Source of the DNA: Bacteroidaceae bacterium
GTDB taxonomy: Bacteria > Bacteroidota > Bacteroidia > Bacteroidales > Bacteroidaceae
NCBI GenBank assembly: GCA_017616445.1
Contig: JAFZYE010000009.1
Location: 1 to 55,706 of the forward strand
Direction: 5' to 3'
Length of the DNA stretch: 55,706 nt
Made by a program: the position numbers and the translations under genes. Shown here in pieces: positions 15,472 to 35,401 of the stretch. Under the pieces are notes generated by a model, which did not search any database, had not been told where the DNA came from, and worked only from the letters and a program-made list of their open reading frames with translations. Every line of letters begins with the position of its first letter. Position 1 is the first letter of the stretch.

Positions 15472-16104
15472 ATGAAGACCAAGTTATTTTATTTCGTAGC
15501 CATCGTCGTTGGTATGATGTATTGCACTACTGTTTCTGCTCAGGATGATAAACAAATGTTGAAAGAACAGAAAGCGATTATGAAACAGGCAACAAAAGAT
15601 GCCAAAAAACAAGCAAAAGAACTGAAGAAAGACGGTTGGAAAGTAGCTGTAGGTGCTACTCCTATGGAGAAACAGTTGGAAGAACTGTTCGTAAAGGAAC
15701 GTGGAGGTAAGGTAGGTCTGCCTCAGTATATCATCGGTAGATCAGAAGCTGTCTCAGGAAGCTATGCTGCAGCACGCAAGATTGCTGTTGCTCGTGCCCG
15801 TGAAGAGGTCGCAGGAACCATCAATACCAAGGTGGCAGGTATTCTGGAGAGTACACTGACCAATGTGCAGACTTCGTCTGTAGATGTAGCAACCGTTCAG
15901 AAAGATGTAAGTACTGCTAAGCAGTTGATTGACCAATCGCTCGATAAGACGGATATCATTTTTGAGGTCTATCGCGAGGTGAACAACAACACTCAGTTCC
16001 AGATTGGCGTTGCATTTGCAGACTCTAAAGCAAAGGAAATTTTGAAGATGTCAATGAGCGGTGCCAGTGCTGAGGCAAAAGCTAAGGCAGAGGAGCAGTG
16101 GTAG
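15472..16104 (+). CDS. Secreted LPP20-like protein, function unknown
   Basis: Signal peptide 1-24 (ending TVSAQ), then a lysine-rich predicted helix (about 28-55, KEQKAIMKQATKDAKKQ), then an LPP20-like alpha/beta region. Its core is SYAAARKIAVARAREEVAGTI (within about 100-122), which resembles the EATQNAKQDLLTSISARVE stretch of the 38996-40888 product. The C-terminal part (about 155-190) is a strand-rich segment ending in an alanine-rich helix. First gene of a seven-gene set of exported proteins. No enzyme motif is seen. LPP20 membership is based on pattern only. Confidence 0.75.
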   Translation: MKTKLFYFVAIVVGMMYCTTVSAQDDKQMLKEQKAIMKQATKDAKKQAKELKKDGWKVAVGATPMEKQLEELFVKERGGKVGLPQYIIGRSEAVSGSYAAARKIAVARAREEVAGTINTKVAGILESTLTNVQTSSVDVATVQKDVSTAKQLIDQSLDKTDIIFEVYREVNNNTQFQIGVAFADSKAKEILKMSMSGASAEAKAKAEEQW

Positions 16105-16230
16105 AGTAAAGTTGAAAGTTTAAAGTTTAAAGTTTATAGTCAGTTTAATGAGTTAAAAGTGAAGCCCTTAGACTTTAGACTTTAGCCGACGAAGTCAATA
16201 ATTATAGTTTAGAGATTAGATCAATAGGAA

Positions 16231-18195
16231 ATGAGACAATATAGATCATATATTATTGCCGTCATCTTCTGTATGATGCCGCTTATGGCATTTGCTCAGG
16301 ACTTGCTCGTCTATTATGTGGTGGGCAATGTAACCTATGCACCTAACGGCTCGAGTGTTCCGCTTGTCATGAACACCCGCATCAAGCCGTCTGTTGTCAT
16401 CACGATACCAGCTGATTGTAGAGTGGAGCTGTTGGATGTATCAAGTTCCAAGCGCTACATTCTTGTTGCTCCCGGAAAGGGCGCAGTAAGTGCGTTGTCA
16501 AAGAATTCTTCGAACTCTGTTATGGATGTGACTCAGGAGTACCTCCAATATGTCCTCAAACAGATGGCCAACGAAGAACTGACATCGCTGAAGCAGCACA
16601 GCCGTGATAGTGAACAGGTGGCAGAATTGCTACAGTCCATAGAGGATAGAGAGATGGAAGGCAGTTCGTTTGCTGATATCTTCAATGATTTCAGAAACGA
16701 TATCCATAAAGAGTTTGAGGAGTTCCGTCGCAAGAACAACGAAGAATATGCTGAGTTTGTTCGTAAGATATGGAAGGAGTTTAAGTCTGCACCAGCCCTT
16801 CCGAAACCAAAGGATGATTTTATCAAACCTGTGGTTTATCAGGATCCTGAAGGACAGCCAACAACTGATCGTTGGAAAATCCTCGATAAAGTGCAGAACT
16901 TTGCAAAGAAAGTATTCAAGTTATCAAAGGATGATGTAGAAAAGGCGAAAGGAAAGAACCGTCCGAAGCCAGCAACTCCTGAAAAGAAAAAAGAGGCAAA
17001 CAAACCAACGATATCAATAGGTTCTGCACCTAAAGACGAATTGGGCGAGCAGCCAATCCAGGAAGTTGCGATTCCTGAATCACAGGAGAAGTTCTCTTCA
17101 ATGCCATTCACATTCTTTGGAACAGAGTTGTCTGTACGTATTGATGAGAGTCGTCGTTTGTATCTCGGCAAGGTCACTCCCGATAATGTGGCCGACCTCA
17201 TTATCAAGCAGTTATCGACAAAGTTCTACGATAACACGATTATTGATTGTCTGGCACTTCGCGACAAGTATCAACTTTGTGACTGGGCCTATCTGCTGAT
17301 GCTTAGAGCACTGAGTGATACTTTCTGCGGAAAAGGAACTAAAGAAGCAGCGTTGCTCACAGGTTATATCTATTGTCAGTCAGGATACAAGGTTCGATTC
17401 GGAACAGATGTCAAAAAGGAGCAGCTCTATCTGCTCGTAGGTAGTCGTCATTTCATCTATGGCAAGATGCCTTGGATGATTGATGGTGATTATTACTATC
17501 CTGTTGAAGAAAACACGCCTTCACTACTATCTATCTGTGAGGCGGCCTATCCACAAGAGCAGAAACTCTCTCTTTTCATTCCAACAGCGCCAAGCTTTAC
17601 AAAGGTGTGGGGTGAGGAACGTGAGATTGCTTCGAAACGTTATCCAGACATCAAGGTTCATGTGAAGACCAACCAGAATCTGATGAAGTTCTATGATACC
17701 TATCCTTCATCGCGTATTGGTGATGACTTCACCACTCGGTGGGTGATGTATGCCAACACCCCTTTGCAGGATGATATCAAACAGCAGATTTATCCAGACT
17801 TGAAGAAAGCGCTCGAAGGAAAGAGTGATCCTGAAAAGGTGGAACGTCTGCTCAACTTTGTGCAGACAGGATTAGAATACGGATATGATGATGTGGTATG
17901 GGGTGGTGATCGTGCCTTCTTTGCAGAAGAATCCCTCAACTATCCGCTTTGTGACTGTGAGGACCGTTCCATCCTCTTCACGCGACTCGTCCGTGATTTG
18001 GTGGGATTGAAGTGTGCTCTCATCTACTATCCAGGGCATTTGGCTTCTGCAGTCCACTTCAAAGAAGATGTCGGTGGTGTACGCTATATGATGGACAACG
18101 AACCATACGTGGTTTGTGATGCCACATATATTAATGCTTCCGTAGGTATGCAAATGCCTGGTTGTACAGATGCCACATTGATTGCAATTGAGTAA
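16231..18195 (+). CDS. Exported transglutaminase-like protein with intact Cys-His-Asp triad
   Basis: Signal peptide 1-22 (PLMAFAQ). Domain order: N-terminal beta domain (about 24-90, LLVYYVVGNVTYAPNG) also seen in the product of 24538; a helical, charged stretch (about 110-185); a low-complexity KPKPATPEKKKE linker (about 225-265); a middle domain (about 285-480); and a C-terminal transglutaminase/cysteine-protease-like fold (about 505-640). The predicted triad is C576 in CDCEDRS, H603 in GHLASAV and D630 in VCDATY. It could cross-link, hydrolyse or deamidate a protein or peptidoglycan peptide. The N-terminus could hold it on a partner protein. A paralogue with Cys changed to Ser lies at 22647. 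Confidence 0.75.
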   Translation: MRQYRSYIIAVIFCMMPLMAFAQDLLVYYVVGNVTYAPNGSSVPLVMNTRIKPSVVITIPADCRVELLDVSSSKRYILVAPGKGAVSALSKNSSNSVMDVTQEYLQYVLKQMANEELTSLKQHSRDSEQVAELLQSIEDREMEGSSFADIFNDFRNDIHKEFEEFRRKNNEEYAEFVRKIWKEFKSAPALPKPKDDFIKPVVYQDPEGQPTTDRWKILDKVQNFAKKVFKLSKDDVEKAKGKNRPKPATPEKKKEANKPTISIGSAPKDELGEQPIQEVAIPESQEKFSSMPFTFFGTELSVRIDESRRLYLGKVTPDNVADLIIKQLSTKFYDNTIIDCLALRDKYQLCDWAYLLMLRALSDTFCGKGTKEAALLTGYIYCQSGYKVRFGTDVKKEQLYLLVGSRHFIYGKMPWMIDGDYYYPVEENTPSLLSICEAAYPQEQKLSLFIPTAPSFTKVWGEEREIASKRYPDIKVHVKTNQNLMKFYDTYPSSRIGDDFTTRWVMYANTPLQDDIKQQIYPDLKKALEGKSDPEKVERLLNFVQTGLEYGYDDVVWGGDRAFFAEESLNYPLCDCEDRSILFTRLVRDLVGLKCALIYYPGHLASAVHFKEDVGGVRYMMDNEPYVVCDATYINASVGMQMPGCTDATLIAIE

Positions 18196-18228
18196 GCTTA
18201 TTCATTAACCAATTTCAATAAAACACTT

Positions 18229-20010
18229 ATGTTTAGATTTACTAAAATTTCCGCTGTAGCATTCGCAATGATGCTACCTCTGTGTTTACACGCACAACAA
18301 AATGATTTTGAATCGAATGCATTTATCCAAGTTCAGGGTGGTGCACAGTTACCGTTTAGTCCAGGCAAAAGAATGGATTTGGTGTCACCTAATTTTGGTG
18401 TCAACTTTGGTGCTTGGCTATCACCTGCAATGGGTTTCCGTGTAGGAGGTGAAGGATTAAAATCAAAAGTTTTTTATAAGGATAAGTACAACTCCTTTAA
18501 GTACTATAATGTAAATGTTGATCTCTTATGTAACTTGTCATCATTCTTTACGGATGATTTCAATTCCAAGAGTAGACTCTACGTATTTGGAGGTGTCGGT
18601 TTAGCTGTATTTGGAGATCAAGATATAGATACTCGTTTGGAGAAAGACGAATTGAGTGGATTGCACAATCAGTCTCATAATCTTCGTGCCGGATTGGGTT
18701 ATGAATACCAATTGGCTCGTCCATTCAGTGTGTCAGCAGAACTCCGTTTTAACAATGCCAGCAGTATCTTTGACGGATTGAAAGGTCCAAACAACCGCAG
18801 CGACTGGCGTGCTTCACTTCTTCTTGGTGTAGCTTATCATTTTGCATACAACAAGAGCAAAGAGTATTCTTATGTAGAACCTGTTCTGACCTCTACTGCT
18901 CCACTTACATTGTATGAGCAGAAAGAGCAAGAGGTAGATGCACGAATGAATACATGGATGAAGCGCATAAAGGGTGAGAGCAAAGACGATTATGCTCTTC
19001 GTACATCAAACGAACGGATGGAAGCACAACGTCTCGACTACTCTAAGACTGTTTCTACCGGAATGGCAGGTAACCGTATCAGTACAAATCTTAGAGATGT
19101 ACAATATAGCAATAATAAGGAAATGTTAGGTGTCAGGTTTACAGATATGCCTGCAATTGCCATCAAGGTTCCACGCTCAGAAATCGCAAGTATCAAGCCC
19201 GACAATATTCAGTTCGCAAATACGATCTACAACCTGAATCCAGGTGATAAGTTCGAGGTAATGTATACGGATGTTATCAACCCTGCAACAGGAAAGAAGT
19301 ATACTTATGTGAAGGAACAAAATGCTCAGTACATGCCAACAGATGGTTATTTGCCACTTTCTGCTATCCATCAGGATATGGAAGCTAACACTAACTTGCA
19401 GCAAATCAAGGATGAGGTTGTAAGGGAAGCAAACGAAAAGAAGATTCTCTCTGACAATACCACAATTACTGTGGCTACAGAGTTGATTCCTACCACCAAC
19501 GGCCAGGCTGATTATAAGATTACTTACTCATATACAGTGAAAGACGGATTCAGTGTACACGATGACTTTGCACCTGGTAAGTATGATGCATCTAAGTCTC
19601 CTGCATCTGTTGCTATGCTCAAGATTATCAAGGAGTCATTGAACGGTGAGTTTGCTAAGTATTGTAAGCCTGGTAAGCCTGCAGAAATTAAGTATTCTGG
19701 TTCTGCCGATGCATCACCAATTAATGGAAAGATTGCATACAATGGTATCTATGGTGATGTTGTTGACCAGGCTGTAAAGATTTCTGGTAAACCATCTAAG
19801 TTGACCGTAACCAAGCAGAGTGGTATTACTACTAACGAACAACTTTCAATGTTGCGTGCCATCAGTGTGAAGAACTACATTCACAAGAATATTCCTGCAC
19901 TGAATGATCTCAACTTAACAGAAAACTATAATGTAGAAGTCGCATCTGAGGAGGGTTCTGAATACCGTCGTGTTATTGCAGAATTCCTGTTCCATGATGT
20001 TCTTAAATAA
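18229..20010 (+). CDS. Outer-membrane beta-barrel protein with OmpA-related C-terminal domain
   Basis: Signal peptide 1-23 (LCLHAQ). Residues about 25-215 form an 8-strand-type small barrel (alternating patterns: FIQVQGGAQLPF, FGVNFGAWLSPAMGFRVGGEG, YYNVNVDLLCNL, LRAGLGYEYQL, ASLLLGVAYHF). Residues about 235-390 contain a WxxR...IKVP module also found in the caspase protein of the next gene (here WMKRIKGES and IKVPRSEIASIK near 311). The C-terminal 110 residues have an OmpA-like helix pattern (LRAISVKNYIHKNI) ending in a strand, but lack a clear peptidoglycan-binding signature. It follows the transglutaminase-like gene by 33 bp. Confidence 0.72.
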   Translation: MFRFTKISAVAFAMMLPLCLHAQQNDFESNAFIQVQGGAQLPFSPGKRMDLVSPNFGVNFGAWLSPAMGFRVGGEGLKSKVFYKDKYNSFKYYNVNVDLLCNLSSFFTDDFNSKSRLYVFGGVGLAVFGDQDIDTRLEKDELSGLHNQSHNLRAGLGYEYQLARPFSVSAELRFNNASSIFDGLKGPNNRSDWRASLLLGVAYHFAYNKSKEYSYVEPVLTSTAPLTLYEQKEQEVDARMNTWMKRIKGESKDDYALRTSNERMEAQRLDYSKTVSTGMAGNRISTNLRDVQYSNNKEMLGVRFTDMPAIAIKVPRSEIASIKPDNIQFANTIYNLNPGDKFEVMYTDVINPATGKKYTYVKEQNAQYMPTDGYLPLSAIHQDMEANTNLQQIKDEVVREANEKKILSDNTTITVATELIPTTNGQADYKITYSYTVKDGFSVHDDFAPGKYDASKSPASVAMLKIIKESLNGEFAKYCKPGKPAEIKYSGSADASPINGKIAYNGIYGDVVDQAVKISGKPSKLTVTKQSGITTNEQLSMLRAISVKNYIHKNIPALNDLNLTENYNVEVASEEGSEYRRVIAEFLFHDVLK

Positions 20011-20020
20011 CAAATGATTG

Positions 20021-20074
20021 AAAGGGGAGGGTGAAGATAAAAACCGAATCCTATTCTTTTACCCTCCCTTTTTT
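20021..20074 (+). terminator. Terminator-like hairpin between barrel and caspase genes
   Basis: AAAGGGGAGGGT pairs with ACCCTCCCTTTT around an A/T-rich loop of about 28 nt and ends in six T residues. It may lower transcription from the first three genes into the caspase genes, giving unequal amounts. Confidence 0.6.
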
Positions 20075-20103
20075 CAACAATCAACAAATATAATCATTAT
20101 TAC

Positions 20104-22623
20104 ATGAAACATTTTATACTAATCATACTTGGAATAGCGTTAACTGGTATTTCTTTTGCACAGCATGTCGACAATTCAAATGTGGAGTTGGCAAAAGATG
20201 TTAATGTGGATTCTTTGACTCAAACGATATTTGCCCACTCCGAGAGTCTTTATGACAGTTATTTTGTACAAAAGGCAGATGGTACGATGCCCAAGAGTCA
20301 GCAATATGATATGTTGTTAGAGTGTTTTTATGGATATATGAAATGTATGAACAAAGTAGATGCGAATGCCTTGTCTAACATCAAGGAAAAAGTTCGTAAA
20401 TTACGTCCTGAGTTAGAGGAAGCTGGCATCTATTTCAGTAATAACGGCAACAACGGGAAAGCCTATAAATATTTAGAGAACTATCTTGTTATTCCACGTC
20501 TTCCATTGTATGATGGTGAGCAATTCCCTCGTAATGCCAATTATCCTGCATACGTGTTCAATGTGGCAGCAGGGCTCCACAATGATCATGATTATAAAGG
20601 TGCTGTATTCTATCTGAAAGAGTATATAGAATTAGGCGAAAAGCTTCATCAGCAGAACTGTTATAAATTCCTTGCGATGGATTTGGATTTGTTAGGAGAA
20701 TTTGAGCAGGAGTCAGGAGTACTTGACGAAGGCATTATGAATTTTCCTAATGATATTGATATGCTCAAACAGGCAACTCAGCTCTATATTAAGAAAAAAC
20801 AAGATGACAAAGCCGAGGCGATGCTTAACAAGGCATTAGCTTTAGTTCCTTATGACGAGGATTTGAAATTGTGTAAAGCTTCTCTTATTGATAATAAAGG
20901 TAATTATCCGGAAGCTTTAGAGATATATAAGGAGTGCTATGTCAAGAATCCTAATGATGTCGATACGAAAAAACGTCTTGCTTTTTGTTACTATAACTAT
21001 GCTGGTTCTTTGATTGATAAGAGCAATACAGCGCAGGATGCTGAGCAATATAAATCACTGAAGTCGTCTGCTGCTGATAATTTCAATCATGCCATCTCTT
21101 TGCTTGAGGAATTGGAGCACATGGACGATGTGGTGCAAGAAGACAAACGTATTCTTGCTGCTTTGTCAGACGCTTACCTTCAGGTGGGACGTGCAGCAGA
21201 TGCATCACAGATGAAGGAACGCGCAGAGCAAGCAAATATGGTTCTGAGTGTGGCTTCTCCTCAAAACACAGAAGTGCCGAATTTCAATGATTGGTATAAA
21301 CCACGTTTGGATAAGTATTTGGAAGAATGGGTGACACGAGGAGAGTTTGAACCTGCTGATGCTTATGCCAACCGAGTTAATTCAGAGACTCGTAAGAGTT
21401 TCATTGCGACAAAACGTCATGACTTGGAACGTGAGTATATTTATGAATACAGTAGCAGATATAATTTGAGGGATTTGACCATCAAACCTTACGATCCGGA
21501 TCATGAGACATTCCGTATCCAGACTCCCCAAGGTGAATTGTATATCAAGGTACCATTGGCAAATGATGAAGCCAAAAACTTCAAAGACAGTTGGAATGGT
21601 GTTCTTGTTTCAAATCCTGTTTTCAGGGTTGACCGTTCTGGAAATATCAGATTAGCAACAGCTCAGTTTGTCACCCCTAATGGTCATTCCTATTTATACG
21701 ATGCAGATATGGAATTAACCTACGGAAAGGTTCCGATTGCACCACCACGCTGGAATGATGAGGATTTGATGGCTGAGGCAGAAGTCAAAGAGAGTCCGAA
21801 AAAGGTGAATGAACCTGAGTATGTTGAGGCTCTGAATGTCGGAGAGTCATCTGTTGACGTAGATGTCCCAATGAATAAGAAAAATGCGAATGAGGCTACG
21901 TATGTCCTGATTATATCGAACGAGAACTATGAAAACGTGGCCAAAGTGCCATTTGCCAATAGTGATGGCAAATCATTCAGGAGATACTGTATTGATGTGT
22001 TAGGCATTCCTGACTATAATATCACTTATTTGGAGAATGCGACATTAGGTAAGATGATTGGTGCCGTTGAAGAGATTAGCAAATGGAAGAGTTTCTGTAC
22101 GAATATGATTGTCTATTATTCTGGCCATGGACTTCCTGATCCTTCGACAGGACAGTCATATTTGATGTCGGTCGACGCAACACCAACGAATTTCAGAACA
22201 AGTTATAAGCTGTCGCAGTTCTATGCGGATTTGGCGGCCAACTATGAGAAGCCAATCACCGTCTTTTTGGATGCTTGTTTCAGTGGAGCAGCTAAAGACG
22301 GAGTGGTAATGGATAAGTCCGCCCGTGGAGTCATCATTAAGACTACGAAGGAAACGCCTACGAACAATATGGTTATCTTCAGTGCTTGTACAGGCGATGA
22401 GACAGCATATCCGTATACCAACCAGAAGCACGGTATGTTTACATATTTCCTGTTAAAGAAACTGCAAGAGGACAAAGGCAAGACCACGTATAAGAAACTG
22501 GCAGATTATATTCAGCAGCAAGTAATGCGAACGTCACGCCAGGTGCTTGGTCATGTACAGACTCCTACAACATACTCATCAATGGCTGACTCAAAGTGGC
22601 AAAGTATGCGTTTGGATAAATAA
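20104..22623 (+). CDS. Exported TPR-caspase (peptidase C14-like) protein
   Basis: Signal peptide 1-20 (TGISFAQ). Residues about 100-380 are TPR-like helical repeats (for example DDKAEAMLNKALALVPYDED and YPEALEIYKECYVKNPND). A module at about 400-560 (RGEFEPADAYANRV, then IKVP at 481) is shared with the preceding barrel protein. The C-terminal domain (about 598-839) is caspase-like, with catalytic H675 in YYSGHGLP and C725 in FLDACFSG. An FSACTGDETAYPY stretch and a final QTPTTYSS motif fit the caspase/metacaspase fold. Both catalytic residues are present, so activity is expected. The signal peptide places it outside the cytoplasm, unlike most studied prokaryotic caspases. The next gene starts 23 bp after the stop. 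Confidence 0.85.
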   Translation: MKHFILIILGIALTGISFAQHVDNSNVELAKDVNVDSLTQTIFAHSESLYDSYFVQKADGTMPKSQQYDMLLECFYGYMKCMNKVDANALSNIKEKVRKLRPELEEAGIYFSNNGNNGKAYKYLENYLVIPRLPLYDGEQFPRNANYPAYVFNVAAGLHNDHDYKGAVFYLKEYIELGEKLHQQNCYKFLAMDLDLLGEFEQESGVLDEGIMNFPNDIDMLKQATQLYIKKKQDDKAEAMLNKALALVPYDEDLKLCKASLIDNKGNYPEALEIYKECYVKNPNDVDTKKRLAFCYYNYAGSLIDKSNTAQDAEQYKSLKSSAADNFNHAISLLEELEHMDDVVQEDKRILAALSDAYLQVGRAADASQMKERAEQANMVLSVASPQNTEVPNFNDWYKPRLDKYLEEWVTRGEFEPADAYANRVNSETRKSFIATKRHDLEREYIYEYSSRYNLRDLTIKPYDPDHETFRIQTPQGELYIKVPLANDEAKNFKDSWNGVLVSNPVFRVDRSGNIRLATAQFVTPNGHSYLYDADMELTYGKVPIAPPRWNDEDLMAEAEVKESPKKVNEPEYVEALNVGESSVDVDVPMNKKNANEATYVLIISNENYENVAKVPFANSDGKSFRRYCIDVLGIPDYNITYLENATLGKMIGAVEEISKWKSFCTNMIVYYSGHGLPDPSTGQSYLMSVDATPTNFRTSYKLSQFYADLAANYEKPITVFLDACFSGAAKDGVVMDKSARGVIIKTTKETPTNNMVIFSACTGDETAYPYTNQKHGMFTYFLLKKLQEDKGKTTYKKLADYIQQQVMRTSRQVLGHVQTPTTYSSMADSKWQSMRLDK

Positions 22624-22646
22624 AGGTAAATAAAAAAATAAAGATA

Positions 22647-23345
22647 GTGAAAAGACAGTTTTTTGTAATAATGTTTTTGGCATCCCTGACATTACAGGCT
22701 CAAAATGGTCCTGCAACGAATGAGGTGCGTACCATCAAGGCAGAGGAGATGCCTACACAGGCGATAGTGACATTTGATGTTCAACGCATTAAGACGATGG
22801 GCAGTTCTTCAACAGCTTCCAATGCGACAGGAGCTGCACAGTGGGAGACGTATGCAAATACCCCTTTGAGCGAGGACGTAAGGGCACAGCTCTATCCGCA
22901 ACTGCGTAAGTATATAGTGAATTTTGGACAAAAGGAAGCGGTGAATGTGTTACTCGACTGGTTACAGACATCAGGTAAGTTTACTTCACGTGCGAAGCAA
23001 CAGTCTTCTAACGCTAAACGGCCTAACCGTCCTTACTATCCAGAAGAGATGCTTTATTATCTTAATGGCGATTCCGAGGATTATGCCATCCTGTTTTCTC
23101 GCATCATTCGCGATTTAGTAGGACTCGATGTCGCTTTGGTCTATTATACCTCCAACGTAGATGGTAAAACGTTCAACCACATGGCAACTGCCATTCAGTT
23201 TACCGAAGATGTGCCTGGTGATGCTGTCACCATAGGCGAAAAGCGCTATGTGATTACAGATCCTGCCTATCAGGGAGCACCTGTCGGACGTACTCATCCT
23301 CATTGTGATAATTCTACCGCAAACATCATATTGTTGAAACGATGA
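22647..23345 (+). CDS. Transglutaminase-like paralogue with Cys to Ser change
   Basis: GTG start at 22647, supported because it gives a complete signal peptide (MKRQFFVIMFLASLTLQAQ) with no in-frame ATG upstream. The mature part (about 70-230) aligns with the C-terminal fold of the 16231 product: both have ANTPL, a YPxLxK helix, an ILFxRxxRDLVGL helix and VxYY. The position of the catalytic cysteine (CDCEDRS) reads GDSEDYA here, giving S143; H178 (NHMATAI) and D205 (TDPAY) are kept. It is therefore either a pseudoenzyme or a serine variant. It overlaps the CHASE2 gene by 4 bp (ATGA). Confidence 0.75.
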   Translation: MKRQFFVIMFLASLTLQAQNGPATNEVRTIKAEEMPTQAIVTFDVQRIKTMGSSSTASNATGAAQWETYANTPLSEDVRAQLYPQLRKYIVNFGQKEAVNVLLDWLQTSGKFTSRAKQQSSNAKRPNRPYYPEEMLYYLNGDSEDYAILFSRIIRDLVGLDVALVYYTSNVDGKTFNHMATAIQFTEDVPGDAVTIGEKRYVITDPAYQGAPVGRTHPHCDNSTANIILLKR

Positions 23346-24541
23346 AGAAAGTTACATTCCTCCTCAGATTACGACGTCACTTTCTTATCAAGTTCATTGG
23401 GGCGTTTCTCCTGAGTGTCGGCATCATAGCTGCCACCTATTTCATAGGCAATAGCGACATACCGATGCCCGATGAGATGAAGGTGCTGCGTACGTTCGAC
23501 CGCATTATGAAGTTTAGCGGTCAGTATGAGGATAATGTGCCTGATAGCATCCTGCTGGTTAATGTCTGTTACGATAAGCAATTGGTTGATTATTCTGTTC
23601 ACGACATTCCGGTAGGCCAGTTTGTCATTACAGATCGTGAGAAACTGTTGCAGTTCCTCACCGCTGCCTGTGAGGCCGACAACTATCGTTACATCATGAT
23701 GGATGTATTCTTTGAGCACAGCATCAAAAGTCCGCAAGACTCTGCTTTGTTCGCAACAATCAGCAAGATGAACCGTATCGTGATTGCCAATCATACGGAT
23801 TCATATCTCTCAGACTCTTTGCTGAAACAGAAATCAGCCTATGCAGACTATACTGTGACATGGAAAGAAGCAAAGTTCTCGCATTTCCAATTCATGCGTG
23901 AGGGCGATGAGCCTACCATGCCGCTTCGCATCTACGAGGATCTCACGGGCAAGACCATCAAGCGTTGGGGACCTTTCTATTTCTCTGATGGCCGCCTCTG
24001 TAAGAATGCCATCACACTCAATCTGCCTATCCGTGTGGCAGAAGACTACAGCCTTGAAGCTCCCAATATTCTGGAGAAACGCTATGAGTTCCTTGGTGCG
24101 GATATTCTGGCTCACGACAGCATCTATCCTGTCTCCATGCAGTTGGAGGACAAGATTGTTATCATCGGAGACTTTATGACCGATGTGCACGATACCTACC
24201 TCGGTCCACAACCAGGTTCGCTTATCTGTATCAATGCTTATCATGCCTTGCAGCAAGGCGATCACTATTTCCAGTGGGGGTGGGCTTTGGTGCAGTTCCT
24301 TATCTACTTCATCATCGGCTATTTCCTGATGAGTAACCTCACGTTCGCCAGGATGGTGCCCAATCTCTACCTTCGCATGCTGTTCTTCATCTTCAGTGTG
24401 CCTTCCATTCTGCTCGTCGTGGCCCTCATTGCTTATGTCACTACAGGTTATGTGTACAACATGTACATCCCAACCTTCCTATATTGGCTCTATCAGTTTA
24501 TTTATAACATTTACATGAAATCAAAAATGCAAATAAAATGA
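23342..24541 (+). CDS. CHASE2-domain membrane protein
   Basis: One N-terminal membrane helix (about 16-36, FIGAFLLSVGIIAATYFIG), a large periplasmic CHASE2-type sensor domain (about 50-305), then three C-terminal membrane helices (about 310-395). The CHASE2 signature near the end of the sensor is KIVIIGDFMTDVHDTYLGPQ followed by INAYHAL. CHASE2 domains normally sense extracytoplasmic ligands and are joined to a kinase, cyclase or similar output. Here no cytoplasmic output domain follows the helices, so signal transfer would depend on partner proteins. The start overlaps the upstream gene and the stop overlaps the downstream gene (both ATGA). Confidence 0.8.
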   Translation: MKKVTFLLRLRRHFLIKFIGAFLLSVGIIAATYFIGNSDIPMPDEMKVLRTFDRIMKFSGQYEDNVPDSILLVNVCYDKQLVDYSVHDIPVGQFVITDREKLLQFLTAACEADNYRYIMMDVFFEHSIKSPQDSALFATISKMNRIVIANHTDSYLSDSLLKQKSAYADYTVTWKEAKFSHFQFMREGDEPTMPLRIYEDLTGKTIKRWGPFYFSDGRLCKNAITLNLPIRVAEDYSLEAPNILEKRYEFLGADILAHDSIYPVSMQLEDKIVIIGDFMTDVHDTYLGPQPGSLICINAYHALQQGDHYFQWGWALVQFLIYFIIGYFLMSNLTFARMVPNLYLRMLFFIFSVPSILLVVALIAYVTTGYVYNMYIPTFLYWLYQFIYNIYMKSKMQIK

Positions 24542-25218
24542 AACGACTTCAATTTCTCAATCTTTCAATCTTTCAATTAAAGTCAACCCTTGTAGTCATT
24601 GGATTATGTGGTAGCCTTATGGCTCTGGCTGACGACTATAAGATTCTTTATACCAACAGCAACGATATCCTCGTCGATGGAAAGAAAGTGCAGGTGGGGG
24701 CAACCTTCAACGATAAGTCTGTCATCACCTGGGCAAAGGGTCAGGAGCGTCAGGCCATCAAGGCGGTGAACACAAAGACCAACAAGATGTGTCTGTTTGT
24801 CTCACAGTCGATGGAGAAGAACTCTCTTACAGCCTATGAGATTCTCACAGCCAACAAGCACCTCTCTACCCACGATGCTTATATCGAAGGTATGGATCTC
24901 AGCATCCCTGTCAAACTACGTTTGTTGTTCTACAAGCAATACGAACTGCTCGATACCTTGGTCATTGATACCAGAGTCGTTCTTCCACCATCATTATCCG
25001 TGATAGCAACATACGAATATGACGGTACGCGTTATTCGAAAACGTTGAAGACAGCGAACGGACAGATTTTCATTGACCGAAAGCTTTTTAATGTTGATGG
25101 AAAGGCACTCAAGCCACGTGATGTGTTCCTCAATATCGACCTCTATAATAAAGATGAAAACGTTTACTTCTTTATCAAGGGCGATGTAGAGTTGATGGTC
25201 ATTCCTGAGACGATATAG
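24538..25218 (+). CDS. Exported protein of unknown function, last gene of the caspase cluster
   Basis: The N-terminus (about 1-32) is a hydrophobic export signal ending MALADD. It is partly built from a CAATTTCTCAATCTTTCAAT-type intergenic repeat, so a downstream start cannot be excluded. Residues about 33-95 (YKILYTNSNDILVDGKK, SVITWAKG) resemble the N-terminal domain of the 16231 product (LLVYYVVGNVTYAPNG). The rest is beta-rich, including KLRLLFYKQYELLDTLVID, without catalytic signatures. It overlaps the CHASE2 gene by 4 bp and probably acts with it. Confidence 0.7.
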   Translation: MKRLQFLNLSIFQLKSTLVVIGLCGSLMALADDYKILYTNSNDILVDGKKVQVGATFNDKSVITWAKGQERQAIKAVNTKTNKMCLFVSQSMEKNSLTAYEILTANKHLSTHDAYIEGMDLSIPVKLRLLFYKQYELLDTLVIDTRVVLPPSLSVIATYEYDGTRYSKTLKTANGQIFIDRKLFNVDGKALKPRDVFLNIDLYNKDENVYFFIKGDVELMVIPETI

Positions 25219-28648: not shown

Positions 28649-31600
28649 ATGAAAAAATTATTATTAACTATAGTATGGACCCTGTCCGTTTTGCTACCAA
28701 TCAAATCGTTTGCGCAAGGCTTGATTACAGATGAAGACGTTGAGCCTTACGCTGTGTTGAGTGACGAGAATACTGTACTTACATTCTATTATGATGAGAA
28801 CAAGACCGCAAATGGTGGTATGGGTGTTGGGCCGTTTACATCTAATGTTACGAGTTGGTTTGACTATCGGGCAAAGATAAAGAAGGTTGTCTTTGATGCT
28901 TCGATGGCAGACTGCAATACCATAACCAGTACGGCCTATTGGTTTAATGGATGTGCGAATCTTGCAACGATTGAGAATATCGCAAACTTAAATACTGACA
29001 ATGTATTGACGATGCGTGAGATGTTCAATTACTGTTCAACATTGGAGAGTCTTGATTTGAAGAACTTCAAAACTGGCAAGGTGACGGACATGCAGAGCAT
29101 GTTTAATAATTGCTCCAGTTTGACATACCTTAATGTGCAAGGTTTCGAAACAGCTGCTGTCACAGATATGAGTTGGATGTTTGCAGGCTGTTCCAAGCTG
29201 ACAACACTTGATGTGAGCAGCTTCAATACGCGCCAAGTGAAGACGATGCACATGATGTTCTCGAACTGTTCTGAGTTGGAGAATCTTGATTTGGGCAGTT
29301 TCACAACAGATAATGCAACCATGTTGTCATATATGTTCCGAGGTTGCTCATCATTGACAACGCTCGACTTGAGTACTTTCAAAACAAGCTCGGTGACTGA
29401 TATGACTTCCATGTTCTCTGGCTGTTCGAATCTGACCACCATCTATGCAAGTAAGAGATGGAACACAGATGTAGTAACGAATAGCAGCGGCATGTTTACT
29501 GGTTGTACGAACTTGCTTGGAGGAAACAATACAGCATACGATTCCGGACACGCAGATGTTGAATATGCATGTATCGATGGCGAAAACGGCAAGCCTGGTT
29601 ATTTGACATATAAAGAGGCTCCAGAACCAGAGCCCTATGCTGTACTGAGTGATGATAATACTGTACTTACATTCTACTATGATGAGAATAAGAGTACAAC
29701 TCCGAATGCGATGGACGTGGGCCCGTTCAATTTTTTTACGAGTTGGTTTGACTACCGTTCTAATATAAAGAAGGTTGTATTTGATGCTTCGATGGCTAAC
29801 TGCAATACCATAACCAGCACTGCCTATTGGTTCAATTATTGTAATAATCTTACAACGATTGAGCATATCGAGTACTTGAACACGGACAACGTGACGAGCA
29901 TGCACGGCATGTTCTCTAGCTGCTCTGGCCTGACAAGCCTCGACGTGAGTGGCTTCAATACAGACAACGTGACGGACATGGGCGGCATGTTCTCTAGCTG
30001 CTCCGGCCTGACAAGTCTTGATTTGAGCAGTTTCAACACCTTGAATGTGAAGGACATGAGCTACATGTTCTCTGGCTGCTCTGGCCTGACAAACCTCGAC
30101 GTGAGGGGGTTCAAGACGCAGAACGTGACGAACATGGGCGGCATGTTCAACGGCTGCTCTGGCCTGACAAGCCTCGACATGACGGGCTTCAATACGCAGA
30201 ACGTGACGAATATGGGCGCCATGTTCTATAACTGCTCTGGCCTGACGAGCCTCGGCTTGAGTGGCTTCAAAACTGACAACGTGACATCTATGAGAGAAAT
30301 GTTCTTTGCTTGTCATGGTCTGGAAAGCCTTAACTTGAGCAGCTTCAAGACCGACAACGTGACGGATATGAGCGATATGTTCTTTAGCTGCACTGGCCTG
30401 AAACAGCTCAACTTGAGCGGCTTCAATACGGAGAACGTGACGAATATGCATAGCATGTTCTATGAATGCTCCAGCCTGATAAGCCTTGATGTGGGTGGCT
30501 TCAATACGGAGAACGTGACGAATATGAGTCAAATGTTCTATCGCTGCTCTAGTTTGAAGAGCCTTAACGTGTCGGGCTTTAAGACGCAAAACGTGACGGA
30601 TATGCGTCAAATGTTCTCTGGCTGCTCTGGCCTGACGAGTCTTGACGTGAGTGGCTTTAAGACGGACAAAGTGACGGACATGGGCTACATGTTCTCTGAT
30701 TGCTTCAGCCTGACAAGCCTTGACGTGAGCGGCTTCAATACAGACAACGTGACGAACATGCATTGTATGTTCGATGACTGCTCTGGTCTGACGAACCTTG
30801 ACGTGAAAGACTTTAATACGGTTAACGTGACGAATATGGGCTACATGTTCAGAGGGTGCTCCGGCCTGACAAGTCTTGATTTGAGCAGTTTCAACACCTT
30901 GAATGTGAAGGACATGAGCTACATGTTCTCTGGCTGCTCTGGCCTGACAAACCTCGACGTGAGGGGGTTCAAGACGCAGAACGTGACAAGCATGAACGAA
31001 ATGTTCTATCGCTGCTCTACTTTGAAGAGTCTTAACTTGAGCAGCTTCAATACGGAGAACGTGACGGACATGGGCGGCATGTTCTCTAGCTGCTCCGATT
31101 TAACCGCAATATATGTGGGAAATGGATGGACGACCGCTAATCTGACTGTGAGTTGGGGTGTGTTCGAAGACTGCACTCATCTTGTTGGTGGCGCAGGAAC
31201 AACTTACGATGCCAATCATACCGACCACACCTATGCTCATATCGATGGCGGTATTTCTAATCCTGGTTACTTGACTGATATTAAAGATATGCCTGAACCA
31301 TACGCCACGCTGAGTGATGGCAATACAAAACTGACGTTCTACTATGATAAAAAGAAAGATGAGAATAACGGCATGAGCATCGGACCGTTCCAGAACTATG
31401 CAGATGAACGTGGCTGGCATTTTGCACGTACCACCATCACCGATGTTGTGATTGATGCTTCGATGGCCGACTACACGGGTCTCACCAGTACGCATCGTTG
31501 GTTCGAAGGCTTTAGCAACCTGACAAATATTAGTGGATTGGAGAATCTGAAGATGGATAATGTGACGATTCCAGCCAATATGTTTGATGGCTGTAGTAGT

Positions 31601-34600
31601 CTGACCAAGCTGGATCTGTCGTCATGGAATACAGAGAACTTTGGTTTCCTTGAAGCGATGTTCAATGAATGTGGCAGTTTGACAGAGGTAAATCTTGCAG
31701 GATGGAAAGTGGCCAACGTGACCTATATGAACTATATGTTCCAAAACTGCTCTTCATTGGCTACCATCTATGTTGATGATAGTTGGAAGCTTGACGAAAC
31801 TGGAAAAGTAACAGGTTGGTTAGATGTGTTCAACGGATGCGTTTCGCTGGTTGGTGGTAAGGGTACACGCTATAATCCAGACGTTTTACATACAGGCTAT
31901 GCCCATATCGATGGTGGCCCAGCTAATCCTGGTTACTTCACAGATATTAATGGTCCAAGGCCGTATATCGTGTTGAGTGAGAGTAACACGAAGCTGGCGT
32001 TCTATTATGATGATAATATGGCGTCGCACACAGAGGGTTATACGGCTGCGTTTAATACCTATTTGCCAAATGAGATCTGGAATGCGCGTCCGAACATCAA
32101 GTCTGTTGTGTTCGACCCGTCGTTTGCCGACTGTACTTTCTTGGAGAGTACGGGTAGCTGGTTCACCGAGTGTAGCCAGTTGGAGAGTATCACAGGATTG
32201 GAGTACTTGAAGACAGACAATGTGACTGACATGTCGGATATGTTCGAAAGCTGTTCTTCGTTGACAGAACTTGACCTCAGCGGTTTCAATACAGCAAAGG
32301 TAGAGAATATGTTTGCGATGTTTGCCGATTGTCAGAACCTGACGACCATCTATGCAGGAACAGGATGGACCACTACCAATGTGACAGAAGGTAACAATAT
32401 GTTCATCAACTGCTTTAACCTGAGGGGTGGACAGGGCACTACATACATGCAAATCAATGTCGGTGTGGACTATGCCCACATCGACGGAGGAACTTCCAAC
32501 CCAGGTTACTTCACCGATAAGAATGCTGCCAACTTCATCCAGTTTGAGGATGATGCTGTGAAGGCGTTGTGTGTTGCCAACTGGGATAAAGACGGTGATG
32601 GTGAGTTGAGCTACGACGAAGCAGAAGCTGTTACGAGTCTGAATAAGGTGTTCTCAATGCAGAAAGACATCACACGCTTCAACGAGTTAGAGTATTTCAC
32701 AGGCTTGACGACGATTGAGGCCCAGGCGTTTGCAGGTTGTATCCAATTAGCGTCCATCACATTACCTGAATCCATCAGGTCGATAGGCGAACGTGCATTC
32801 CAAGGATGTACCTCGTTTGAGATGGTGGGTCTGCCTATGGAGGTAGAACATGTTGGTGCTTACGCATTCGAAGGATGTACAATGCTGAGAGAGATGTTTA
32901 CGCCTCAGAAGTTACAAAAGTTGGAGCGTGGAACCTTCGCAAACTGTACAGGACTGGAATATGTGATGCTTGAAGGCCCAATCGAGACCATCGCAGACTC
33001 TGTCTTTGCAGGTTGCTCAAGACTGGGATGGATCGAAATACCTCAAACGGTGACCAGTTTCGGCAAGTATGTGTTTGACGGCTGTGTTGAGCTGCATGAG
33101 GTGATGATGTATCAGCTGACAATCACGACGATTCCTGAAGGCATGTTCAGAGGTTGTGCCCAACTGCATCACGCGGAGATTCCTGCTTCTGTAACCAAGA
33201 TAGAGAGTTTCGCTTTCCAGAATTGTGAGTCGATGGAGGAAATCAACATCCCAAGTGGTGTTACCAGCATGGGAGAGAGCATCTTTGCCGGCTGTTCACA
33301 TCTACTCGAGGTTTATACAGACATCGTGAATCCGTTTGTGATTAACAGCAATAACTTCGATAACGAGACTTATCAGAATGCTACGCTCTATATTCCTACA
33401 GGTACGCTCCAAGCATATTCAACAACAGAATCCTGGAAGCGCTTCCTTCACATCTCTGATGGTAAAGAGGCATACGCTGTGCTGGGCGAGGATGATAATC
33501 ATCAATTGGTTCTGACATTCTATTATGATGCGAACAGGGCAAATTATAATAATACGATGAATATCGAACCATTCTCAGCAGCTGATGATAGGGGATGGGC
33601 AGGAGCCGCAGGTTCAATACAGACAGTCAGGTTTGACGAATCGTTCGCATTCTGCGCTACAGTGACAAGTACAGCTTATTGGTTTGCGAACTTTGCAAAT
33701 CTGACATCGATAAATGGTTTAGAGTATCTCAAGACTGATAATGTGACGAGCATGAAGCAGATGTTCAGTGGATGTGCAAACTTATCTACTCTTGAGGTAA
33801 ATGGTTTCAATACAGAGAACGTAGAAGACATGAGCGAGATGTTCCTGCTCTGTCAAGGTCTGAACCATCTTGATTTAAGTTACTTTAATACTTCGAACGT
33901 GAAGGACATGACTTCGATGTTCTCCATGTGTTCAAATCTGGAAGAATTGGATTTGAGCAGTTTCAGTACGTCGAATGTTGAGTACATGAGTTCGATGTTC
34001 TTTGGGTGTACAAACTTACAAACGATTTATGTAGGACGTAATTGGAGTACTTCAAAAGTGAAAGACGGTAACCAAATGTTCTACGAATGTCATAACCTGA
34101 GGGGAGGTCAAGGAACCGAGTATTCTCAACAACATACAGGAGTTGACTATGCCCATATCGATGGTGGAACGGCCAATCCTGGCTATCTGACAAGTGCAGA
34201 CGGTTCGGACATCACAGAGTTCGAGTTGGATGGCATCGTCTATCGTGTACGCGACAGAGACAATCATAAGGTTACAGTGGTTCGTGTGATGTATGCAAAC
34301 CGTGAGCGGTACGTGCCGTCGGAGGTTGAGTATGGTCGCAACCATTGGAGAGTGACAGCATTGGGCGAAAAGGCCTTTGCTGACCTTCATGAGGTGGCTG
34401 TTATCGGAGTGCCTGAGTCAATCGACAGCATTTCTGTTGAGCTGTTCAATCATTGCACACACTTGGCTGCCATCATTTGGGAAACCAATGTACCGCTGAC
34501 GTTAGCAGCAATGTCTCAGTACGATAACCCGAACCTGTTGCTCTTCATGAACAACACAGCTGCTGCTCCTGCAGGTGTGACCAATATCATCGATATGAGC

Positions 34601-35401
34601 ACCAACACGGCAGAAAAAATTGTGCTGACGGATGCTGAGTCGGGTAATGATTTCTATTGCCCTGAACCATTCATGGCGAAGGAAATCAGTTACACCCATA
34701 GCTACGATCAAGCAACCAAGATTGGTGTTTGTCAAGGATGGGAGAGCATCGTGCTGCCATTCGATGTACAGACATTCAGGCATGAAACGAAAGGTGAGAT
34801 CTATCCAATCGCAAGTTTGCTCGACGAGCAGATCGAGTTGGATGGCGACAAACCATTCTGGTTGTATGAGTTTACGCAACAAGGCGAATTCAAGGAGGCA
34901 GATAAGATCAGGGCCAACACACCTTATATATTATCTATGCCGAACGATCCTGTGTATTGGGATAGCTACATCCTGAGCGGTAAGGTGACGTTCAAGGCAA
35001 ATAATGTCGAGGTGATGCCTACGGAACAAGCGATGTATGTAGAAGGAGGAAATCGTGTATTCGTTCCTAACTATGAGAACGCAGACTACAACAATCCTGA
35101 TGCATACTTGCTGAATGTGGGCGATGCTTACGACGGACACCTGCCAGGAAGTGTGTTCTCGGCAGAACGTGATAACAGAAAAGCACGTCCATTCGAGGCA
35201 TACTTCATGTACAACGGTATGCATCCAGCGAAGCGTTATATCGACATCTTCGACAAAGATGCATCGTCTATCCGTGAGATACCAGCTAATAGCCAGACAC
35301 TGAAGGGTGCGTATGACTTGACGGGTCGCAAGGTGAACAACGAAACCACGCTGCCAAGAGGTGTCTATATCATCGATGGCAAAAAGGTGATCATCAAATG
35401 A
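28649..35401 (+). CDS. Giant BspA-like leucine-rich repeat surface protein with T9SS-type tail
   Basis: Exported protein of 2250 residues. A signal peptide (1-23, IKSFAQ) is followed by five modules starting near residues 33, 329, 884, 1105 and 1608. Each opens with a PYAVLS-type motif and FYYD, continues with DUF285/BspA-type repeats of 23 residues (LxxLDxSxFNTxNVTxMxxMFxxCS), and closes with AHIDGGxxNPGYLT-like residues. Module 2 has about 16 such repeats. An EF-hand-like loop DKDGDGELSYDE (1313-1324) precedes an LRR_5-type region (about 1330-1600: LPESIRSIGERAFQGC). The C-terminus (YDLTGRKVNN, GVYIIDGKKVIIK) is T9SS/Por-tail-like. BspA proteins commonly mediate adhesion; the ligand is unknown. 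A 131-bp exact duplication exists inside module 2. Confidence 0.9.
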   Translation: MKKLLLTIVWTLSVLLPIKSFAQGLITDEDVEPYAVLSDENTVLTFYYDENKTANGGMGVGPFTSNVTSWFDYRAKIKKVVFDASMADCNTITSTAYWFNGCANLATIENIANLNTDNVLTMREMFNYCSTLESLDLKNFKTGKVTDMQSMFNNCSSLTYLNVQGFETAAVTDMSWMFAGCSKLTTLDVSSFNTRQVKTMHMMFSNCSELENLDLGSFTTDNATMLSYMFRGCSSLTTLDLSTFKTSSVTDMTSMFSGCSNLTTIYASKRWNTDVVTNSSGMFTGCTNLLGGNNTAYDSGHADVEYACIDGENGKPGYLTYKEAPEPEPYAVLSDDNTVLTFYYDENKSTTPNAMDVGPFNFFTSWFDYRSNIKKVVFDASMANCNTITSTAYWFNYCNNLTTIEHIEYLNTDNVTSMHGMFSSCSGLTSLDVSGFNTDNVTDMGGMFSSCSGLTSLDLSSFNTLNVKDMSYMFSGCSGLTNLDVRGFKTQNVTNMGGMFNGCSGLTSLDMTGFNTQNVTNMGAMFYNCSGLTSLGLSGFKTDNVTSMREMFFACHGLESLNLSSFKTDNVTDMSDMFFSCTGLKQLNLSGFNTENVTNMHSMFYECSSLISLDVGGFNTENVTNMSQMFYRCSSLKSLNVSGFKTQNVTDMRQMFSGCSGLTSLDVSGFKTDKVTDMGYMFSDCFSLTSLDVSGFNTDNVTNMHCMFDDCSGLTNLDVKDFNTVNVTNMGYMFRGCSGLTSLDLSSFNTLNVKDMSYMFSGCSGLTNLDVRGFKTQNVTSMNEMFYRCSTLKSLNLSSFNTENVTDMGGMFSSCSDLTAIYVGNGWTTANLTVSWGVFEDCTHLVGGAGTTYDANHTDHTYAHIDGGISNPGYLTDIKDMPEPYATLSDGNTKLTFYYDKKKDENNGMSIGPFQNYADERGWHFARTTITDVVIDASMADYTGLTSTHRWFEGFSNLTNISGLENLKMDNVTIPANMFDGCSSLTKLDLSSWNTENFGFLEAMFNECGSLTEVNLAGWKVANVTYMNYMFQNCSSLATIYVDDSWKLDETGKVTGWLDVFNGCVSLVGGKGTRYNPDVLHTGYAHIDGGPANPGYFTDINGPRPYIVLSESNTKLAFYYDDNMASHTEGYTAAFNTYLPNEIWNARPNIKSVVFDPSFADCTFLESTGSWFTECSQLESITGLEYLKTDNVTDMSDMFESCSSLTELDLSGFNTAKVENMFAMFADCQNLTTIYAGTGWTTTNVTEGNNMFINCFNLRGGQGTTYMQINVGVDYAHIDGGTSNPGYFTDKNAANFIQFEDDAVKALCVANWDKDGDGELSYDEAEAVTSLNKVFSMQKDITRFNELEYFTGLTTIEAQAFAGCIQLASITLPESIRSIGERAFQGCTSFEMVGLPMEVEHVGAYAFEGCTMLREMFTPQKLQKLERGTFANCTGLEYVMLEGPIETIADSVFAGCSRLGWIEIPQTVTSFGKYVFDGCVELHEVMMYQLTITTIPEGMFRGCAQLHHAEIPASVTKIESFAFQNCESMEEINIPSGVTSMGESIFAGCSHLLEVYTDIVNPFVINSNNFDNETYQNATLYIPTGTLQAYSTTESWKRFLHISDGKEAYAVLGEDDNHQLVLTFYYDANRANYNNTMNIEPFSAADDRGWAGAAGSIQTVRFDESFAFCATVTSTAYWFANFANLTSINGLEYLKTDNVTSMKQMFSGCANLSTLEVNGFNTENVEDMSEMFLLCQGLNHLDLSYFNTSNVKDMTSMFSMCSNLEELDLSSFSTSNVEYMSSMFFGCTNLQTIYVGRNWSTSKVKDGNQMFYECHNLRGGQGTEYSQQHTGVDYAHIDGGTANPGYLTSADGSDITEFELDGIVYRVRDRDNHKVTVVRVMYANRERYVPSEVEYGRNHWRVTALGEKAFADLHEVAVIGVPESIDSISVELFNHCTHLAAIIWETNVPLTLAAMSQYDNPNLLLFMNNTAAAPAGVTNIIDMSTNTAEKIVLTDAESGNDFYCPEPFMAKEISYTHSYDQATKIGVCQGWESIVLPFDVQTFRHETKGEIYPIASLLDEQIELDGDKPFWLYEFTQQGEFKEADKIRANTPYILSMPNDPVYWDSYILSGKVTFKANNVEVMPTEQAMYVEGGNRVFVPNYENADYNNPDAYLLNVGDAYDGHLPGSVFSAERDNRKARPFEAYFMYNGMHPAKRYIDIFDKDASSIREIPANSQTLKGAYDLTGRKVNNETTLPRGVYIIDGKKVIIK
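29999..30987 (+). repeat. Exact 131-bp direct repeat inside the BspA-like gene
   Basis: Bases 29999-30129 and 30857-30987 are identical. The offset is 858 bp, exactly 286 codons, so recombination between the copies would delete or add about 12 leucine-rich repeats without a frameshift. Confidence 0.9.

Follow-up and report, generated by a model that had tools for sequence, protein, structure and literature searches.

In the LapD–LapG system, an inner-membrane receptor controls a periplasmic protease of the transglutaminase fold from the periplasmic side of the receptor (PMC4359373, PMC3032545). A caspase-fold enzyme is combined with a CHASE2 domain in the metacaspase–CHASE2 fusion of Trichodesmium erythraeum IMS101, where CHASE2 is flanked by one and by three membrane helices (PMC3501461, PMC2853523), and the Burkholderia BiofilmReg operon has a FecR–LysM protein together with a CHASE2 histidine kinase (PMC5192318). 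A survey of metacaspases notes that 14 of 217 operons encode an OmpA domain and that some homologues may have signal peptides (PMC3501461), so that the export of a caspase is in itself no novelty. In the EACC1-caspase two-gene systems a small membrane component accompanies a variable caspase-domain partner (PMC7159879), and HvyA, a transglutaminase homologue of Caulobacter, restricts the capsule (PMC4241560). The pairing of an output-less CHASE2 protein with an exported cysteine enzyme, as considered here, was not described in the open-licence literature that was searched.

The window, the whole stretch of DNA that was analysed, comprises 55,706 nucleotides of a Bacteroidaceae bacterium (GCA_017616445.1, contig JAFZYE010000009.1). 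A first-pass annotation, made from the letters alone, proposed that seven same-strand genes form one exported envelope system. Seven plus-strand open reading frames are indeed present between positions 15472 and 25218:

15472–16104, plus strand: A, exported LPP20-like protein, 210 aa (open reading frame; family profile against PDB 5ok8)
16231–18195, plus strand: B, exported protein, 654 aa, with a C-terminal transglutaminase-like domain (C576/H603/D630)
18229–20010, plus strand: C, 593 aa, with an N-terminal outer-membrane-barrel-like region and a conserved C-terminal region (weak Pfam match)
20104–22623, plus strand: D, exported TPR protein with a C14 caspase domain, 839 aa (PF00656; H675/C725)
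22647–23345, plus strand: E, paralogue of the C-terminus of B with Cys changed to Ser, 232 aa (blastp; alignment)
23342–24541, plus strand: F, inner-membrane CHASE2 protein without output domain, 399 aa (PF05226 above cut-off)
24538–25218, plus strand: G, small exported partner, 226 aa, whose N-terminal domain also starts C14 caspases elsewhere

The intergenic gaps from A to G are 126, 33, 93, 23, −4 and −4 bp, and the last three values (D–E, E–F and F–G) are the 23-bp spacing and the ATGA overlaps that had been reported for the last four genes. A hydropathy script found N-terminal hydrophobic segments in A, B, C, D, F and G. The earlier statement that all seven products carry a signal peptide or membrane helices holds for these six by script, and for E by a reading of the signal peptide by eye only.

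The logic that we propose for F and G, receptor-side control of a periplasmic cysteine protease of the transglutaminase fold, resembles that of LapD–LapG. However, LapD has cytoplasmic c-di-GMP-binding domains, which F lacks, 30 relatives of B show no match to the LapG family at E 0.1, and the enzyme family at F loci varies. With the T. erythraeum fusion the locus shares the coupling of a caspase-fold peptidase to CHASE2, but in the fusion the caspase is N-terminal and predicted to be cytoplasmic, whereas the caspase of the window is a protein of its own that carries an export signal. As in the metacaspase–OmpA operons, a protein with a weak OmpA match (C) adjoins a caspase (D); unlike the F loci, the operons are discussed in a section of that survey that names no CHASE2 or transglutaminase partner (PMC3501461). 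The combination of a small membrane component with a variable caspase-domain partner recalls the EACC1-caspase systems (PMC7159879), but EACC1 is a single-helix domain and F a CHASE2 protein, and D scores 63.2 bits against the EACC1-caspase model NF047832, below its cut-off of 140. The BiofilmReg operon likewise has a gene for an exported small-domain protein adjoining a CHASE2 receptor gene, but CHASE2 in the operon as described has a kinase output and no protease, and G lacks a Pfam FecR match. HvyA resembles B as a bacterial transglutaminase homologue, with a role at the cell surface. We know of no CHASE2 partner of HvyA.

F matches CHASE2 (PF05226) at 33.3 bits, above the Pfam cut-off of 26.3; of 41 F proteins that were aligned, 27 match CHASE2 at E 0.01. 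Three membrane segments were located by the hydropathy script and a fourth, near the C-terminus, by eye. The description of F as a CHASE2 protein without an output domain proved correct. In 56 homologues of 360–470 aa the tail past the last hydrophobic segment measures 0–38 aa; these are the proteins of that length among the 60 F open reading frames in L058–L120, with L096, L108 (a caspase fusion), L113 and L118 (contig ends) left out. The F protein of L096 has a long N-terminus, and its match to F runs to the last residue but one. The F profile gave two hits in the PDB, both at chance level, and no match to F was found in phage records, which says little on defence.

G matches no Pfam family. 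Its domain forms the N-terminus of ten C14 caspases at other F loci, one of them at L099, and comparison of G with nine of the ten gave an hhalign value of 99.8% (1.1e-28), with the signal-peptide region included. In L108, which contributes another of the ten, the F protein, the G domain and the caspase occupy one open reading frame, with a signal-like helix preceding G. This fusion comes from a single bin, and an error is possible. Three remote proteins that are G or G-like resemble FecR by eye, but an assignment of G to FecR was rejected, as Pfam gave no FecR match for these three or for 32 members.

B consists of an N-terminal domain (approximately residues 21–135), a conserved stretch (approximately 143–220) and the C-terminal transglutaminase-like domain. 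The triad C576/H603/D630 occurs at the positions given in the first-pass annotation with the Cys-His-Asp order kept, and it is invariant in 30 of 30 aligned sequences (window B and 29 of the 32 B-type relatives from F loci). The intact triad thus stands, but the assignment to transglutaminases is less secure at the family level, where B scores 14.4 bits against Transglut_core (PF01841), below the Pfam cut-off of 23; at E 0.1 this family is matched by 13 of 30 B relatives. Peptidase C93, which we take to be the Pfam name of the LapG family, is not among the Pfam families matched by the 30 B relatives at E 0.1, and a sequence match of B to the PDB was not found. Homology of the N-terminal domain of B to G was considered and is unsupported (hhalign probability 0.8%).

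E is 37% identical to the C-terminal part of B (about 2e-30 by blastp). The nucleophilic Cys is Ser in 6 of 6 E sequences, namely window E and five orthologues, and His and Asp are retained. Both the paralogy of E and B and the Cys-to-Ser change had been overlooked before. For A, the family profile matches the LPP20 structure (5ok8) with E 0.0012, in keeping with the proposed likeness to LPP20, but Pfam LPP20 is matched by only one of 28 A members (E 0.042).

The small barrel mentioned in the first-pass annotation is C, the N-terminus of which matches the OMP barrel family weakly (20.1 bits, below the cut-off of 28.7). Its conserved C-terminal region has a weak OmpA match in Pfam and no match in the PDB. 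D carries a C14 domain (PF00656; 75 bits, cut-off 21.4) behind TPRs. The dyad H675/C725 was found where it had been placed, and all 29 proteins labelled C14 in the F stretches keep it. Matches of D in the PDB fall in the TPR part; among plasmids there are eight distant matches, one of them adjoining an LPP20 gene in Sulfurimonas. By gene order, long C adjoins a C14 gene in all ten loci that have long C, three of which represent one genus. An automatic count, in which the D matches were trimmed to the caspase part, found C and D less than 1 kb apart in only 5 of 9 places. One protein of genome G093 matches both C and D.

The claim of a seven-gene system did not survive comparison with close relatives. 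In five named relatives (L058–L062) F is 86–92% identical to window F, but all seven genes were found in two genomes only, those of the window and of L058. L059–L062 have the order A-B-E-F-G and lack C-D, which rules out a seven-gene unit. The orthologous locus in genome G021 is also A-B-E-F-G, with E directly 3′ of B in the alignment; its contig C51 is taken to be the L061 contig (a Bacteroidaceae bin from sheep reticulum), and the two count as one case. C-D is a separate module, and its gain in the lineage of the window and L058 is a simpler reading than loss. The pairs A-B, C-D and F-G each behave as a unit of their own.

Among 121 genomes of the family, matches were obtained to C in 89 (mostly the barrel alone), to D in 63 (19 of them with the caspase part), to B in 45, to E in 39 and to A in 21, whereas F and G were each matched in 4, not all of them the same genomes. 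Of the 25 A places in these genomes, 22 have a B place no more than 10 kb away and 24 have B or D nearby, where a rough genome size of 2.8 Mb would lead one to expect about 0.3; conversely, A is close to 26 of the 56 B places, and A or B to 17 of the 30 caspase places. A and B are therefore a frequent pair, to which F-G is a rare addition. The co-occurrence expected earlier was thus found in part: modules are kept together, but the genes also occur independently of each other. With the window's own genome included and weak hits counted, F turned up in 4 genomes out of 121 at the level of the family, 11 out of 393 for the order and 9 out of 395 for the phylum. The cluster is real, partly conserved and thinly spread across Bacteroidota. 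F occurs in scattered bacteria, most of them from the gut, where its gene usually adjoins that of an exported enzyme of the protein-cutting type, and the form with a transglutaminase-like enzyme occurs in Prevotella ruminicola KHT3 and in Prevotella sp. ne3005 and P6B1.

Two F relatives outside the genus adjoined other enzymes, a TPR-CHAT protein at L038 and a C14 protein with LRRs at L039. The full set of F loci comprised 63 from named genomes, order-level hits with their surroundings, L039 and L051; an F open reading frame was obtained at 72 of 75 loci, and L099, L100 and L120, which gave none, are outside the 72. Labels for enzymes came from profiles built in this analysis, and gene calls were simple open reading frames, mostly from metagenome bins. 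A transglutaminase-like, C14, CHAT or papain-like label was present in the F directon at 59 of 72 loci. Within three genes of F on either strand the count is 60 of 72, and directly adjoining F it is 51 of 72, or 50 without the label at L141, where the 277-aa neighbour is G (3.5e-48) and its transglutaminase label (8.6e-4) is spurious. Control anchors were genes of 330–520 aa in the same stretches that did not belong to the F directon and lay over three genes away from F; they had an enzyme in the directon in 5 of 114 cases and adjacent in 1 of 114; without the three-gene rule these values are 5 and 1 of 139. After collapse at 80% identity, the directon holds an enzyme at 43 of 56 loci: 11 with C14, 11 with CHAT, 10 with a transglutaminase-like enzyme, 8 with C14 and transglutaminase (including L141, which truly has C14 only), 2 with papain-like and C14 enzymes and 1 with C14 and CHAT, leaving 13 with none. 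G or a B-type N-terminal domain is found in the F directon at 54 of 72 loci. The 13 of 72 loci without a labelled enzyme include 8 whose directons touch the end of the stretch; of the other five, L090 and L117 have a CHAT gene within three genes.

Pfam agreed with the labels in the proteins that were checked (C14 9 of 9, papain C1 1 of 1, CHAT 5 of 5), and also found CHAT in L107. The CHAT dyad is kept in 19 of 20 proteins, with one unaligned. An N-terminal hydrophobic segment, scored by hydropathy and not by a signal-peptide predictor, was present in 84 of the 90 enzymes encoded in F stretches versus 187 of 390 unlabelled genes longer than 250 aa. On a quick F tree of 70 rows, 59 of them labelled and with L118 and L142 left out, enzyme class changes 7 times versus 22.7 in shuffles, and the classes form few blocks; near-copies also add to this contrast, transglutaminase took precedence at two-class loci, and the L141 label is wrong. 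Judged from this tree, F and its enzyme appear to have moved mostly as a pair. What recurs is F and G beside an exported cysteine enzyme, a core narrower than seven genes.

Apart from the window's own genome, a scan of 395 genomes of the phylum gave eight with F matches. Three are clear F loci, with a match along most of F. In L144 a C14 gene adjoins F, with three more C14-labelled genes upstream and G after F; in L146 the C14 gene is 3.3 kb away on the same strand with a G-like gene, recognized by eye, in between; L145 has F and G and no enzyme. L147 matches the C-terminal part of F only and has an adjacent C14 gene. The other four (L148–L151) match the membrane part of F only: L148 has TIR and no CHASE2 match, L150 resembles L148, and L149 and L151 are, in contrast to F, CHASE2-cyclases. 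With an adjacent C14 gene in one of three clear loci, the scan gives weaker support than the survey of 72 loci.

In view of the above, the earlier proposal that an inner-membrane sensor controls an exported enzyme can be retained for F and its neighbour, though not for a seven-gene unit. The 59 of 72 F loci with such an enzyme, compared to 5 of 114 control anchors, make a sensor with an extracytoplasmic enzyme a good reading. Our preferred explanation, in which we place about as much trust as doubt, is that F and G are a receptor pair by which the adjoining exported enzyme of cysteine-peptidase fold is controlled from the periplasmic side. It is based on the gene linkage, the catalytic residues, export as judged by hydropathy, the lack of an output domain in F, the G-caspase fusions and the congruence of the tree. 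Against it are the 13 of 72 F loci without an enzyme and the frequent occurrence of the enzymes without F (among 121 family genomes, F in 4, B in 45 and D-type C14 in 19).

In the mechanism that we consider, the CHASE2 domain of F would be in the periplasm and would sense a ligand there. Since F has no cytoplasmic output, the output should likewise lie in the periplasm, or else within the membrane. F may bind, hold or activate the enzyme, with which we infer physical contact and a direction of control from receptor to enzyme, and G could act as the adaptor, being fused to the enzyme where this is a C14 caspase. In the window, the enzyme under control of F and G would be the transglutaminase-like B, which may cleave or join proteins. 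E, with His and Asp kept and Ser in place of Cys, could be a non-catalytic partner whose role is to bind the substrate or to occupy F. Together with its partner C, D would form a second effector module, inserted into the operon in one lineage, and the LPP20-like A may be located at the outer membrane, where the substrates would be. A wider formulation, a hitherto undescribed class of extracytoplasmic signalling in Bacteroidota in which output-less CHASE2 proteins gate exported cysteine peptidases of four unrelated families via G as common adaptor, with E as a conserved pseudo-enzyme and additional regulator in one clade, is put forward tentatively and seems to us less probable than not.

Other explanations account for part of the data. 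F and G could be a passive anchor and a chaperone for an exported maturation machine whose trimming or cross-linking of surface lipoproteins is constitutive and involves no sensing. The transglutaminase locus L065, which has an exported CarboxypepD_reg, BACON_2 and laminin-G-like protein and a DUF5683 protein, would fit such a machine, as would the recurrence of clusters related to L065 proteins in 4 to 7 other transglutaminase loci and the many enzymes found without F. However, F retains the whole of CHASE2, an extracellular sensory domain (PMC5192318), and control would explain better than anchoring why a single scaffold serves four unrelated families of cysteine enzymes, so that we consider a passive role unlikely, albeit one to be reckoned with. 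The flow could also be the reverse, with the exported enzyme producing a peptide that is sensed by F and G. This would give the same gene linkage and agrees with CHASE2 being a receptor domain (PMC5192318), but it is improbable given that F has no output domain and that no kinase or cyclase was noticed in F directons (domain scan of ten F-locus proteins).

That the locus would serve an antiphage response, as the first-pass annotation had suggested, or programmed death from a position in the envelope, appears very improbable. Caspases and peptidases of the transglutaminase fold do serve as effectors of conflict systems (PMC7159879, PMC8195603), but here the enzymes appear to be exported, D falls below the EACC1-caspase cut-off (63.2 versus 140 bits), and a known defence system finds little support, PADLOC having given only weak single-gene hits. 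The operon lies between metabolic genes, its flanks matching aroB, xpt, pbuX and a deaminase (the last below cut-off), and these surroundings do not look like a defence island. A chance neighbourhood of unrelated envelope genes could account for the lack of C-D in four close relatives and for L145, where F and G stand alone, but is scarcely credible in view of the 59 of 72 F loci versus 5 of 114 control anchors and of the 22 of 25 A places near B, where about 0.3 would be expected.

The ligands of CHASE2 domains were stated as unknown in 2016 (PMC5192318), and the roles of bacterial caspase homologues are mostly open. A CHASE2 family with recurrent exported cysteine enzymes as partners suggests that its output is periplasmic. 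The periplasmic domain of F, G and the enzyme make up a small purifiable set for testing both ligand and output. The pairing suggests an undescribed form of control over enzymes of the protein-cutting type outside the cytoplasm.

The profile built from the C-terminal part of C, whose N-terminus is barrel-like, also matches proteins of the type of D, a TPR protein with a C14 caspase domain, and eight proteins carry both labels. Because of this cross-match, a domain preceding the caspase part may be common to C and D.
18229-20010, + strand: C
20104-22623, + strand: D

C14 caspases were also found in other arrangements. At L096 and L039 they are fused to BspA-type LRRs and adjoin F, the CHASE2 membrane protein that lacks an output domain. 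Two additional C14 caspases with export signals are encoded in the window's own genome, and a caspase gene overlapping an LPP20-family gene occurs outside the Bacteroidota.
L004:7571-8935: C14 caspase with export signal (C32)
L005:7784-9157: C14 caspase with export signal (C24)
L143:6128-8934: caspase gene overlapping an LPP20-family gene, Sulfurimonas plasmid pSULFM1

The two additional caspases lie near genes that by eye resemble small outer-membrane or surface proteins. At L076, L078, L088 and L089 the A-TGase-F-G cluster has another cluster beside it, made up of LPP20-like, DUF4384-like, exported and C14 genes. Another exported caspase-like family (cluster 13) is present at the TGase loci L028, L035, L036 and L049, adjoining a cluster 14 gene that by eye resembles a sigma factor.

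At two loci a papain-like C1 protein adjoins F, and at two others a protein has an F-like membrane part, with a TIR domain in the L148 protein.
L103:4807-6255: papain-like C1 protein
L119:8525-9973: papain-like C1 protein
L148:8730-10394: F-like membrane part, TIR domain
L150:8515-10182: F-like membrane part

The DUF4384 match in the L119 case lies slightly under the cut-off, and the DUF4384 label of cluster 2 at other places was assigned by eye. The L148 and L150 proteins adjoin an exported protein resembling FecR (by eye).

Downstream of the operon, both in the window and in its close relative L059, lies a giant surface protein.
28649-35401 of the window: PARCEL-repeat surface protein
L059:14042-20026: PARCEL-repeat surface protein

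The B-type (exported TGase-like) proteins of F loci range from 482 to 1318 aa. In the TGase-like proteins of rumen Prevotella, the signal peptide is separated from the enzyme domain by a charged repeat linker that varies greatly in length and can be likened to a ruler.
L081:2889-6845: TGase-like protein with linker
L066:7756-9960: the same
L075:6973-9960: the same
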